From positions 1 to 38,783 of the forward strand of contig JAAFJS010000025.1 of the NCBI GenBank assembly GCA_013298985.1: a DNA stretch of 38,783 bases. The letters run 5' to 3'. This stretch comes from Cytophagales bacterium. GTDB lineage: Bacteria; Bacteroidota; Bacteroidia; Cytophagales; Thermoflexibacteraceae. Position numbers and translations under genes: made by a program. The first letter of the stretch is position 1; the number at the start of each line of letters is the position of its first letter. The notes beneath the pieces are model-generated. The model was given only the letters and a program-made list of their open reading frames with translations, was not told the origin of the DNA and did not search any database. Positions 33,794 to 37,933 of this stretch are shown piece after piece.

Positions 33794-34852
33794 TTACTTT
33801 TTAAACACCGCTACTTTTTTATTCACATATTTGTCCTTATTTTCCTTCAAGTCCAAAAGCCAATTAGCGTACATATTTTTGGGCATTTGGCGGTAGCCCA
33901 AGCTATGAATTTGCTTGTAAACTTGGTTCATTTGGGCGAACTTTGCTTTGGTGCTTGGGTCGTCTTTGCCTTTGGTTTGCACCAATTTTTTGTACTGACT
34001 GAGTAGCGTTTCTCCTTGTAAGAGCAAGGCATTCACGCAGTTAGGGAAGTGCTGTAATGCCAATTCACAGCACTGCAATACAAATGAGCCATCATTTTCA
34101 GGGAATTTCTTGGTATATCCCTGTCCTAAATCTACTACACACAAGGCGACTGCCCTGTGCGTGCCTATGGTGTCCATATAAAGCGCATTCTGAACTGCCT
34201 CTAAGCTGATGTAGCCCGAAACCATGAGCCACGCATCTATGGGAAAAGTAGCACTCGTCAGTTCTGTATTGTACCAGCCTGTTTTCTTGCTGTGGTGCTT
34301 GATATAGAGGTGATTAGGGGCAAGTGCCAAATGTGCCTCTGCGCCTAACTCATCACACAAGATTTTGTAGAGGTAGGGCAGAGAGTGACAGTTGCCTGTC
34401 TTGGTAGCTAAGAGCTTGGTAACAAAGGTTTTAGACCAGTCCGTATCGCCAAAAAAATCGTTGAAGTCATAGCCGAAGGGGGAATGATAGGCTAAATTGC
34501 CACTATCTAATGCTACTTTGATAGTATCTGTGAGAATTTTAAAAACAGAACCATATTTTGCGACCTTTGCAATGTCTTTTTCTGGATATTCTAAGGCATT
34601 TGCCATCATAAATCTGGCACTTAAATCGGCTAAGAATAAAACTCTTTGATTAAATACTTCATATTCGATTTCATTATCTAAAAAAGCATTTTCTGTTAAA
34701 AAAACAGCTTTCTTAAAGTCATTTTTTTGTGTACCTTCAAGCATTTCAGCGATATTTTGATAGGCATTATCATAGTATTTTGAACCTGATTGGGCATATA
34801 TACAAATACAAGAGATACAGTAAAAAAGTAAGGTAAAACTAATTTTTCTCAT
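33794..34852 (-). CDS. Secreted protein with transglutaminase-like Cys-His pair
   Basis: The ATG at 34852 is chosen because it opens a signal peptide (MRKISFTLLFYCISCICIYA, cleavage near 20); a frame extension upstream adds 28 residues without sense. Length is 352. The centre carries TKTGNCHSLPYLYKILCDEL (Cys155), APNHLYIKH (His181) and WYNTELTS (Glu197). This is the order and spacing of the Cys-His-acid triad of transglutaminase-like cysteine peptidases, which use G-C-x-x-x-x-x-(Y/L/F). The C-terminal third is helical, TPR-like (SFVLQCCELALQHFPNCVNA). It lies 13 bases after a putative lipoprotein and ends the cluster that includes a GG-leader peptide. Function is unknown. Confidence 0.72.
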   Translation of the reverse strand: MRKISFTLLFYCISCICIYAQSGSKYYDNAYQNIAEMLEGTQKNDFKKAVFLTENAFLDNEIEYEVFNQRVLFLADLSARFMMANALEYPEKDIAKVAKYGSVFKILTDTIKVALDSGNLAYHSPFGYDFNDFFGDTDWSKTFVTKLLATKTGNCHSLPYLYKILCDELGAEAHLALAPNHLYIKHHSKKTGWYNTELTSATFPIDAWLMVSGYISLEAVQNALYMDTIGTHRAVALCVVDLGQGYTKKFPENDGSFVLQCCELALQHFPNCVNALLLQGETLLSQYKKLVQTKGKDDPSTKAKFAQMNQVYKQIHSLGYRQMPKNMYANWLLDLKENKDKYVNKKVAVFKK

Positions 34853-34865
34853 AAAATATTGATAT

Positions 34866-35627
34866 TTAATCTTTTGAAAATCCATTGAGAATATAATATA
34901 ATTCTGATAAACCGTTCCAATCATTGCAAGTTGCATCTGTTATTTGCAAAGTGTCTTTATTCTTGATAAGATAATAGTTAGTAGGATGTTCGCAACTTCG
35001 AGAAAGCTTCTTTATTTTTCGGAGTTCTACTTCTAATCGCCTGATGTCATTAATTTCTCTACCCAATTTTTTTGTAAAAAGTTCATCATTATCAGTACTA
35101 TCATTATTGATTTTCAACAAATTAACAAAATAATTATCTTGCGCTTTCCAAATTTTTATACTTTTATGATTTTTTGACCAGCCCAAATGAAAATCTACTC
35201 CAATAATGCGAAGTGTATCTCCTAATTTAAGTTCATTTATCATTAGGCTTTCTGTGTATTGTTGCCAATTATTTTTACATAAATCTATTTTTAATGTATC
35301 TATAGGCTCATGAATTTCAATTTGAGAAGTTATGACCTCATTATAGATATTTTTGTATTTTAATTTAAACTGCCCAAACAAGAGGCTGTCTATCAATAGG
35401 TTATTTTCTTTGATATACATCTTCAGTATTAATTTATCATTTCTGTCTAAAACTTCAATCGTATCATCATAGAAAATAAATTCTCTCTCTGGTTGATATG
35501 AACTATAAAAAAGCAACAACAAATTACCTTTTTTATGAGTAGAGGTACATTGAAAGAAGATTAAAAAACAGATTGTAAAAAAATATAAAACATATCTATT
35601 TACCATACTTTTTAGCTTTGTCATCAT
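34866..35627 (-). CDS. Putative lipoprotein of unknown function
   Basis: 253 residues from the first ATG; an ATG seven codons later (35606) gives a cleaner signal sequence, MVNRYVLYFFTICFLIFFQC, whose Cys would be the lipid site, although Gln at -1 is unusual for a lipobox. The rest is charged and beta/helix mixed with a Lys/Arg/Glu-rich segment REINDIRRLEVELRKIKKL. No family is recognised. Its start lies inside the 3' end of a decayed HExxH metalloprotease-like gene, whose stop is at 35596. That head-to-tail overlap is the usual arrangement of effector and immunity genes, so an immunity or partner role is one hypothesis. Confidence 0.65.
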   Translation of the reverse strand: MMTKLKSMVNRYVLYFFTICFLIFFQCTSTHKKGNLLLLFYSSYQPEREFIFYDDTIEVLDRNDKLILKMYIKENNLLIDSLLFGQFKLKYKNIYNEVITSQIEIHEPIDTLKIDLCKNNWQQYTESLMINELKLGDTLRIIGVDFHLGWSKNHKSIKIWKAQDNYFVNLLKINNDSTDNDELFTKKLGREINDIRRLEVELRKIKKLSRSCEHPTNYYLIKNKDTLQITDATCNDWNGLSELYYILNGFSKD

Positions 35628-36145
35628 AACCTTTCCATCTATGAATACTGTGTAATTTCATCAAAAAATTATATGTAGCAGCTTTATTAATCTGATTTGA
35701 AGTAGGACTTGTTGTAATTACAGGTGTACCAGCGTGGTCTTTCCTTGTTACCCCTCCTTTTTTTATTTCTCCAAATGCTATTGCTGTTTTCTACTCTGTA
35801 CCTGTAATCACTCTTTTCTCCTCTTTGTTCCCATATTGTTCGTCTTTCTCTTTTGCCCTTGTTTCATGTGCAGTATGATTTTTTGCATCATCATGAGCAT
35901 GGTCAGACTCATGGTCTAAGGCGATAGAACTGTTCCATTAGTAGTTTCAAGCCCTCCCAAAGGATTCCAATTAATGACACCATCATCATAATTATATATC
36001 TGCCTTTACGCAATAAAGATATTATTTTCTTTGAGTCCCCTTTAAATGAGATTTCTATGTTCTTTCTTATGATTTCTTCTGATGTCTGACCAAAAGAAAC
36101 ATAAAAAAATAAAGTAAAAATAAATGTTAAAGCATTGATTTTCAT
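35596..36145 (-). pseudogene. Decayed secreted HExxH metalloprotease-like (effector-type) gene
   Basis: A minus-strand gene broken in three places. It begins MKINALTFIFTLFFYVSFGQ (signal peptide) and reads to LLRKGRY. After a frameshift near 35995-36002 it continues YNYDDGVINWNPLGGLETTN. A one-base deletion at about 35920 leads to LDHESDHAHDDAKNH, with zinc motif HESDH. It then runs through YGNKEEKRVITGTE to an in-frame TAG (35791-35793), then KTAIAFGEIKKGGVTRKDHA, GTPVITTSPTS and KLHSIHRWKGYDDKAKKYGK to the stop at 35596. The GGLxTTNGTVLSP...HExxH...NKEEKRVI layout is one I associate with effector-type zinc peptidase domains found at the ends of Rhs-like and other secreted Bacteroidota proteins. 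The rebuilt length is about 180 residues. Confidence 0.68.
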
Positions 36146-36248
36146 TAGCTTAATAGTATAGTGTATTTTAAATGATTGATGTAATACAAGGAAGAAAGAA
36201 TCATCAAAATTTCATCATTCTAATGACTCTTTCAGATTAATTTAGGGA

Positions 36249-36410
36249 TTAGCAAAATCCTGAATTATTAAATTCTTCAACAGCAGCATCGGACTGTACT
36301 TTAGTGCCAAAGAAAACAATATAACGCAAAATTCCGCAATATGTTTCGAGTGGAATATAAAATATACCCCCTCTTACATTTTCCATTTCTTCAAAAGATA
36401 ATTTTTTCAT
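36249..36410 (-). CDS. Double-glycine leader peptide (exported peptide / RiPP-like precursor)
   Basis: A 53-codon frame from ATG 36408-36410 to TAA 36249-36251. The N-terminus MKKLSFEEMENVRGG is a textbook Bacteroidota GG leader: basic start, L-S-x-E-x-M-x-x-(V/I)-x-GG, with cleavage expected after Gly15. The 38-residue product starts IFYIPLETYCGILRYIVFFG and ends EEFNNSGFC; it has two cysteines (positions 25 and 53 of the precursor) that could pair. Such leaders are read by C39-peptidase ABC exporters working with an HlyD adaptor. No exporter gene remains here, only an HlyD stub 29 kb away. Peptide activity (bacteriocin, signal, other) cannot be told. No strict -7 box was found upstream. Confidence 0.75.
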   Translation of the reverse strand: MKKLSFEEMENVRGGIFYIPLETYCGILRYIVFFGTKVQSDAAVEEFNNSGFC

Positions 36411-36518
36411 TGTTTTGATTGTTTTAAAGTTTACGAAATTGATTATCGTAAAAAAATTACACTTGCAAGTTTTGTTCTTTTTACTTAGGGCAAAGTAAGA
36501 GGGTTTGTTTCAAAATAC

Positions 36519-36588
36519 CTGCATTTGTAGCTACGTATTTTATGGGTGTTGCCAATACGATATTGGTATTACCCATAAAATAATGCAG
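36519..36588. repeat. Long imperfect hairpin in the divergent region
   Basis: Arms ATTTTATGGGTGTTGCCAATA (split here: ATTTTATGGGT, GTTG, CCAATA; 36537-36557) and the matching TATTGGT-ATT-ACCCATAAAAT (36561-36581) pair except for a 4-base internal loop, with a 3-base apical loop CGA. An outer pair CTGCATT (36519-36525) / AATGCAG (36582-36588) extends it across an 11-base left bulge that itself contains GTAGCTAC. It sits between divergent genes, so it is unlikely to be a simple terminator. Confidence 0.7.
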
Positions 36589-36700: not shown

Positions 36701-36898
36701 ATGCCTACAAAACACATCACCTTACGCGAACTTGCCCTACGCATCAGGGCTTTCCGCTTAGAGAAAAACTACAAACAAGAGGTAGTAGCTCAGGAGCTGC
36801 AAATCGGGCAGTCTGCCAAATCTTTGACCAAAGCAAAATTATTGCCCCAGTACAACTGCTCTCATTTACAAAAGTTCTTTATCTTTGCAAAAACATAG
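36701..36898 (+). pseudogene. Degenerate XRE-type helix-turn-helix gene
   Basis: The first 40 codons look like an HTH_3 regulator (LRIRAFRLEKNYKQEVVAQE LQIGQS). After QSA the sense is lost in the current frame (KSLTKAKLLPQYN). Nearby frames contain pieces of the expected continuation: AATCTT..GA.CAAAGCAAAATTATTGCC would give N-L-E-Q-S-K-I-I-A. This suggests a small deletion after QSA plus an inserted T. The usual fourth and fifth helices are missing and the protein ends at 65 residues. Its promoter looks intact. A -7 box for the next gene lies in its 3' end. Confidence 0.55.
36880..36887 (+). promoter_or_regulatory. Candidate -7 box of the MDR oxidoreductase gene
   Basis: TATCTTTG fits TAnnTTTG, 47 bases before the ATG at 36935, inside the end of the XRE remnant. 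The -33 element is not clear. Confidence 0.4.
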
Positions 36899-36934: not shown

Positions 36935-37933
36935 ATGAAAGCATTACAAATTACTGATGACCCAAAGGAAAAACTAAAAATAGTGGAAATTCCCACGCCC
37001 AGCCTCAGTGAGGGCGAAGCACTGATTAGACTCACTACTGCCGCCCTCAATCATCGCGACCAGTGGATTCGAGAGGACAAATATCCTAACATCAAGCCCA
37101 ATACTACGCTGGGGTCAGACGGGTGCGGAGTGGTAGAAAAAGTGAGCAACGAAGCAGACCAACATTGGCTTGGGAAAACAGTAATTATCAATCCAAACAT
37201 AGGGTGGGGAGAAAATCCACGTTTTCAATCACCTCATTATCAGATTCTTGGAATGCCTACACACGGTACTTTTGCAGAATACATCGTTACCAAAACTGAC
37301 CGACTCCATATAAAACCTGAACATCTTACTGACGAACAGGCGGCAACCTTGCCCTTGGGTGGGCTGACTGCCTATCGTGCTGTTTTTACATTTGGAAACG
37401 CACAAACAGGCGATAATGTGTTAATTTCGGGCGTAGGTGGCGGTGTAGCTACACTTGCTTTGCAGTTTGCCTTGTCAAAAAAAGCAAATGTCTATGTAAC
37501 TTCGGGCAGTAAGGAAAAAATAGAAAAAGCAGTCGCAGCAGGCGCAATGGCAGGCGCAAACTATAAAGAGGCAAACTGGAACAAGGAGTTGCACGAAAAG
37601 ATAAAAGGCTTAAACTTGGTGGTGGATAGCGGCGGTGGCAAGGGTTTCAGCGATTTTATTCGCATGATGAAGCCCGCAGGAAAAATTGTATTTTATGGTG
37701 CTACACAAGGGCTACCCGTTACGCTGGATTTGTATAGAATGTTTTACTATCAAATTACTATTCAAGGAATTACCATGGGAAATGACGAAGAATTTGCTCA
37801 AATGATACAGTTAGTGAATGAGCAGAAAATTGTACCATTTGTAGATTCAGTGCGTCCATTTGCTGATATTATTTCTGCCTTTGACGAGATGAAAGCAGGA
37901 AAGCAGTTTGGCAAATTGGTCATTAAGTATTGA
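36935..37933 (+). CDS. Zinc-less medium-chain dehydrogenase/reductase (quinone oxidoreductase-like)
   Basis: 332 residues, MDR superfamily. The N-terminal GroES-like domain shows LNHRDQWIREDKYPNIKPNT LGSDGCGVVEKV; the catalytic-zinc cysteine seen in alcohol dehydrogenases is replaced by Asn-His-Arg-Asp, and the structural four-cysteine loop is absent. The nucleotide fold is VLISGVGGGVATLALQFALS (GxGxxG), followed by YVTSGSKEKIEKAVAAGA. LPLGGLTAYRAVF is the family's conserved hinge. It should reduce a quinone, enone or aldehyde with NAD(P)H in the cytoplasm; the exact substrate is unknown. It is apparently transcribed alone. Confidence 0.88.
   Translation: MKALQITDDPKEKLKIVEIPTPSLSEGEALIRLTTAALNHRDQWIREDKYPNIKPNTTLGSDGCGVVEKVSNEADQHWLGKTVIINPNIGWGENPRFQSPHYQILGMPTHGTFAEYIVTKTDRLHIKPEHLTDEQAATLPLGGLTAYRAVFTFGNAQTGDNVLISGVGGGVATLALQFALSKKANVYVTSGSKEKIEKAVAAGAMAGANYKEANWNKELHEKIKGLNLVVDSGGGKGFSDFIRMMKPAGKIVFYGATQGLPVTLDLYRMFYYQITIQGITMGNDEEFAQMIQLVNEQKIVPFVDSVRPFADIISAFDEMKAGKQFGKLVIKY

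Follow-up and report, generated by a model that had tools for sequence, protein, structure and literature searches.

A small gene on the minus strand of the window, at positions 36249–36410, is probably an orphan precursor of a secreted, unmodified, bacteriocin-like peptide with two cysteines, which would be exported in trans. The window is the whole stretch of DNA that was analyzed, 38,783 nucleotides in length, and represents the complete contig C168 of a genome that totals 6.06 Mb over 383 contigs (G000, referred to below as the own genome), very probably from a Thermoflexibacter species (Cytophagales, Bacteroidota). This reading builds on an intact frame, the family of its leader, the layout of its cysteines, the exporters present in the genome, and a relation to a precursor that is located in a full operon of a congener.

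Translation of the minus strand from position 36410 to 36249 yielded 53 codons, beginning with ATG and followed by a stop codon, and the resulting protein is MKKLSFEEMENVRGGIFYIPLETYCGILRYIVFFGTKVQSDAAVEEFNNSGFC. Residues 1–15 constitute the leader, MKKLSFEEMENVRGG (36366–36410, minus strand), and residues 16–53 the core, IFYIPLETYCGILRYIVFFGTKVQSDAAVEEFNNSGFC, which is 38 residues long and contains two cysteines, at core positions 10 and 38. The coordinates, the strand, the three lengths (53, 15, and 38 residues) and the number of cysteines given in the preliminary description were all confirmed by this translation. The classical consensus of double-glycine leaders is LSxxE[LM]xx[IV]xGG. The window leader follows it and ends in GG, the feature by which peptides exported by C39-PCAT are recognized, and cleavage by a C39 peptidase is predicted after this GG. 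The pattern was also used in a chance test, having been picked after the frame had been seen: among ATG-started frames that stay open for at least 40 codons, one of the 358 qualifying frames in the window carries the consensus near its start, whereas none of 320,932 does so in 90.06 Mb of random sequence (first-order Markov, window composition), which argues that the leader did not arise by chance. The core has a computed average mass of about 4356 Da, which a disulfide would lower by 2 Da, a net charge of -2 and few Ser/Thr residues. Its Gly+Ala share is 0.13, whereas the 16 other complete cores for which it was computed have 0.26–0.50 in 14 cases and 0.13 and 0.15 in the remaining two; this comparison set includes two cores outside the leader set at E ≤ 0.01 (see below) and misses one inside it. 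A frameshifted core was considered and rejected, as the other two frames after the leader yield neither a Gly/Ala-rich nor a two-cysteine core. A single-sequence AlphaFold model placed helices at residues 6–16 and 21–49, with a mean pLDDT of 68 that is too weak for use.

A profile made from five leaders was used to search for relatives, in two genomes of the own genus (G001 and G002) and one of a second genus of the family (G003) among others; five of the matched leaders were members of the profile itself. At E ≤ 1, matches were obtained in 8 of the 13 genomes of the family, including four in the own genome, 11 in G002, five in G001 and nine in G003. At E ≤ 0.01, 24 matches were retained, all of them in these four genomes, i.e., in two genera. 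Conservation of the leader in related genomes, the lack of which the preliminary description had listed among the observations that would refute its claim, was hence found both within the genus and in a second one. With one match left out (G002 C115), the other 23 comprised four fusions to helix-turn-helix (HTH) proteins, three precursors cut by contig ends (including a copy on contig C373 described below) and 16 complete precursors including that of the window. In all 16, the first cysteine lies at core positions 2–14 and the last one 0–16 residues from the end, and 14 of them have exactly two cysteines. The two-cysteine layout is not universal, since a frame with a GG leader outside the E ≤ 0.01 set (L094:4323–4532) contains a single cysteine. 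With its cysteines at positions 10 and 38, the window peptide therefore keeps the common layout of the family, while its sequence is its own.

Several precursors with GG leaders were seen to be grouped on contigs C67 and C92 of G002, C90 and C185 of G003, and C30 of G001, some of them accompanied by ABC pumps and hydrophobic proteins. Against PF10439, one Gly/Ala-rich G003 peptide scored 26.9 bits (cut-off 27.1), and a peptide on contig C85 of G002 scored 24.4 bits against TIGR04149 (cut-off 25). Thermoflexibacter and the related genus possess a rich bacteriocin-like repertoire, with many precursors that share a two-cysteine layout and that could be tested in T. ruber DSM 9560.

The nearest gene is a precursor on contig C34 of G001, composed of the leader MKELSFEEMMDTVGG and the core GLCLDMAMQIGRCAASGDWYCVGYLGAAYVAYCIPPKEA. 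It is divergent from a clear HTH regulator, and the genes downstream of it encode a protein of 139 aa, a hydrophobic protein of 212 aa, a thioredoxin-like protein and a C39 exporter of 717 aa, so that it belongs to an exporter operon of the bacteroidetocin type. At the DNA level, 40 of 45 bases are alike between the window and G001 over the first 27 coding bases and the 18 bases upstream of them; in the next 120 bases, which cover the last 18 bases of the leader and the core, 45 are alike, where approximately 32 are expected by shuffling.

The own genome has two C39-peptidase ABC exporters (PF03412) scoring above the cut-off, located on contigs C83 and C255, and hence none on the contig of the window; the PCAT exporter anticipated in the preliminary description is present in the genome, not beside the gene. 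Adjacency of exporter and precursor is common in C39 PCAT systems and is not required. On C255, genes in one direction encode this exporter, a thioredoxin-like protein, a hydrophobic protein that matches nothing in Pfam, an ABC ATPase and a further two hydrophobic frames. The exporter, the frame of which is incomplete at the contig end, shares 51% identity over 469 residues with that of the G001 operon, and the thioredoxin and the hydrophobic protein are 34% and 25% identical to their counterparts there. Because its proteins are relatives of those in the G001 precursor operon, C255 is named here as the likely source of an exporter acting in trans.

Paralogs of the leader were also anticipated, and two further leaders were found in the own genome, both on contig C23: MKKLSLNEMQGVQGG, whose core runs off the contig, and KLSEDEMEKITGG, which lies within the C-terminus of an HTH protein of 126 residues. 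One cluster may be split between C23 and C255, since similar gene orders occur in L088 of G002 (HTH, precursor, two hydrophobic frames, ABC) and in L092 of G003 (precursors, hydrophobic frames, ABC, hydrophobic protein, thioredoxin-like protein, start of an exporter), with the families assigned by eye. In addition, a second copy of the coding sequence of the window was located at the very end of contig C373 (C373:1–146, L021), where 48 codons encode an identical protein. The two differ by one synonymous mismatch in 146 bases, 144 of them coding. The contig ends within the core of this copy, the similarity to the window stops two bases before the start codon with unrelated sequences upstream, and C373 continues into a divergent long frame that is CHAT/STAND-like by eye. 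Either the coding part was truly duplicated or the copy is an artefact of its place at a contig end.

The surroundings of the gene include several candidate regulatory elements. A terminator-like hairpin (36194–36233, minus strand; 17 pairs, three of them G-C) is situated about 15 bases past the stop codon and lends mild support to the reality of the gene; two sites of this kind were found in a scan of 1.5 kb, where shuffled sequences gave 0.7 on average. The upstream region (36411–36530, minus strand) holds the palindrome ACTTGCAAGT at 36461–36470, which recurs ahead of a gene with a GG leader on contig C85 of G002; this palindrome is a candidate operator and may have a regulatory role. A further hairpin at 36531–36588 (z-score -5.56), located between the peptide gene and a divergent HTH-like frame, had no further copy in the own genome among the 40 of 135 candidates that were scored. 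The divergent frame (36701–36898, plus strand; 65 aa) matched HTH_3 with an E value of 0.005 and 17.3 bits (cut-off 23); it is possibly decayed, and it gave no alignment with the HTH gene of G001. Four sigma-70-type sites were found near the peptide gene, against 6.6 expected in shuffled sequences. The -7 motif of Bacteroidota is TAnnTTTG, and upstream of the peptide gene this motif occurs with one mismatch and never in perfect form. Inspection by eye of the frames that neighbor the gene revealed no histidine kinase, peptide receptor or modification gene.

In both congeners, a hydrolase-like gene, and not the peptide region, precedes the gene that corresponds to the quinone-reductase-like gene of the window (36935–37933; both names assigned by eye), and the relative of the window gene at 32.6–33.6 kb is located mid-contig on another contig; the peptide gene is therefore placed at a synteny breakpoint. 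A run of short, disrupted-looking frames was observed at 35600–36145 (minus strand), where it separates the peptide gene from a gene of 253 residues; the portion at 35909–36145 had no convincing Pfam match. Also near the peptide locus, the gene at 33794–34936 (minus strand) showed a very weak transglutaminase match, and ten matching pieces of it were noted on five contigs of G002 (C117, C26, C25, C88, and C54).

Searches for relatives of the core returned the own genome and no homolog elsewhere. Among 59 genomes, the own one included, only the own genome matched better than E 0.08, and none of the 58 relatives has an ortholog of the peptide; among 395 Bacteroidota genomes, some of which also belong to the 59, only the own genome matched at E ≤ 0.01. 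Neither species genomes nor viral contigs contained a core relative in scans with exact 8-residue stretches of one peptide, which reach close relatives only and may omit the own genome, and a core relative was likewise absent from plasmids, phages and PDB sequences. The claim that the core resembles no recognized peptide thus held across genomes, viral contigs, plasmids, phages and PDB. Searches of Pfam and NCBIfam gave no match of the peptide above a curated cut-off: PF10439 (Bacteriocin_IIc) had none at E ≤ 10, TIGR04149 had none, and TIGR03949 scored 14.9 bits (cut-off 21.5). Weak matches of the whole peptide were obtained at E ≤ 1 in 14 of the 58 other genomes, the best at 0.08; when read in frame, all 17 of these places resembled, by eye, pieces of unrelated frames or of longer proteins. 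In the own genome, a weak place on C328 belongs to a peptidase-like frame (by eye), a second one is at C23:2031, and a DNA match on C257 is an AT-rich stretch ahead of a TonB-type gene (by eye) and contains no precursor. A new core sequence is added to the exported peptides of Bacteroidota.

The closest known system is that of the bacteroidetocins, class IIf bacteriocins of Bacteroidetes, which have a leader of 15–16 aa, a mature peptide of 35–50 aa and at least two cysteines, and whose genes accompany those for a PCAT and a TM protein and, in most cases, a thiol oxidoreductase (Coyne et al., 2019; PMC6671954). The leader length, mature size and cysteines of the window peptide fall within these descriptions, and the operon of congener G001 (hydrophobic protein, thioredoxin-like protein and C39 exporter) is comparable to the four-gene regions described there (PMC6671954). 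However, no operon of PCAT, TM protein and oxidoreductase accompanies the window gene, unlike the G001 gene on C34, which has such neighbors; because this operon is missing, the window gene is not filed as a bacteroidetocin. In addition, the window core is acidic (-2), in contrast to the basic bacteroidetocins A and B (PMC6671954), and the likeness is one of layout. With class II bacteriocins of the double-glycine type (PF10439, TIGR01847, and TIGR03949), the peptide shares the leader consensus LSxxEMxxVxGG, but it differs from them in lacking a PF10439 match, in scoring below the TIGR03949 cut-off and in having a core that is not Gly/Ala-rich. The GG peptides of Bacteroidota that are modified by radical SAM enzymes (TIGR04149) likewise have a short GG leader, but the window peptide does not match their model. 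Within the open-licence literature, no paper was found that joins double-glycine, Cytophagales and bacteriocin, which is no proof that such peptides are undescribed.

In the mechanism that we favor, the gene would be transcribed from the minus strand, with transcription ending at the hairpin behind the stop codon. The C39 domain of a peptidase-containing ABC exporter encoded elsewhere, most likely on C255, would recognize the 15-residue leader and, as the family suggests, cut after Gly15, and the 38-residue core would exit the cytoplasm. The two cysteines, lying towards opposite ends of the core, would form a disulfide, assisted by the thioredoxin-like protein and the membrane proteins that the exporter operon encodes. 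By analogy to bacteroidetocins, the exported peptide may then act on, and presumably kill, neighboring bacteria, probably related Bacteroidota. The gene would accordingly be an orphan in a variable region that is served in trans.

The main rival to this reading, which we consider less probable though worth serious attention, is that the gene is a relic: a precursor that has lost its cluster, with an intact leader and a core no longer under selection, so that the peptide would be rare or without function. A relic is possible because there is no exporter at the locus, the gene stands at a breakpoint relative to both congeners and the core is Gly/Ala-poor (0.13), and the disrupted-looking neighbors, the weak HTH neighbor and the lack of an ortholog among 58 relatives are in keeping with it. 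The frame, however, is intact, both cysteines are at the positions of the family, a terminator-like hairpin is present, no better core is offered by either of the alternative frames after the leader, and the second copy keeps the protein unchanged over 48 codons. The exported peptide could alternatively be a pheromone-like signal, and not a weapon, that is sensed by the producer or its kin; double-glycine peptides include pheromones, and a divergent HTH-like frame lies upstream. We regard this as unlikely, as the HTH match is weak, the neighboring frames contain by eye no histidine kinase or peptide receptor, and paralogs of the family adjoin ABC pumps that could serve self-protection.

The preliminary description had left the choice between an exported peptide and a RiPP precursor, and its general part was upheld by the leader paralogs, the exporters and the unmatched core, though the contig carries no exporter. 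A RiPP precursor with an enzymatically modified core, of the lanthipeptide or radical-SAM type, is very improbable: the shape of the leader is common to RiPP precursors of Bacteroidota and the G002 peptide on C85 comes close to the TIGR04149 cut-off (24.4 bits against 25), but TIGR04149 does not match the window peptide, no modification gene was seen in the neighboring frames and the core has few Ser/Thr residues. A lanthipeptide in particular is unlikely because no LanC-like cyclase was found in the own genome (0 matches at E ≤ 0.001, in a search whose control matched in one of 14 known genomes). As for a chance open reading frame, the short length and the core for which no homolog was found would agree with it; the leader family contradicts it, as does the random-sequence test, and on these grounds it was ruled out with a residual probability that is negligible.

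HTH proteins (HTH_11-like) belonging to the same family as the one on C23 were often observed to carry the double-glycine leader motif at the C-terminus, as in KLSEDEMEKITGG. Those at G000 C23:163–543 (L036, minus strand), L088:4627–4977, L091:5231–5614 and L093:1520–1888 are encoded directly upstream of a precursor with a GG leader, and others were located at L101:1785–2126 and in L132. The HTH family is present in 58 of the 291 genomes of the order. By a strict pattern, the GG motif was found in six of 34 distinct HTH frames, and by eye in 12 of the 34; the frames were picked out by an HMM search, and this share is biased upwards since the loci are the best matches to a profile in which four of five members bear the motif. 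After the duplicate loci L105 and L106 had been dropped, a script found a GG-leader frame or a relative of the exporter-operon proteins in the loci of 10 of the 12 motif-bearing frames (11 when the contig-cut precursor of C23 is counted). Eight of the 22 frames that lack the motif were likewise accompanied, one of these cases (L130) being the HTH frame itself. The association with export genes is a lead, as the frames were grouped once the data were known and the loci differ in length. In the open-licence literature, no paper evidently about HTH proteins with the recognition motif of an exporter was found. Such proteins offer a concrete and testable idea that links export with gene control.

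A broader and rather doubtful reading would treat these elements as parts of a modular arsenal: a single conserved leader would be combined with exchangeable cores, and the same motif is borne on the C-terminus of HTH regulators of the clusters. The C39 domain would recognize and perhaps cut the regulators, such that free exporter capacity would lead to more transcription of the peptides, and the two copies of the window gene would be products of exchange. On contig C689 of G523 (L130), an HTH protein of the same family has a leader-like motif at its N-terminus instead, with LSLSEMTETEGG preceding the HTH part.
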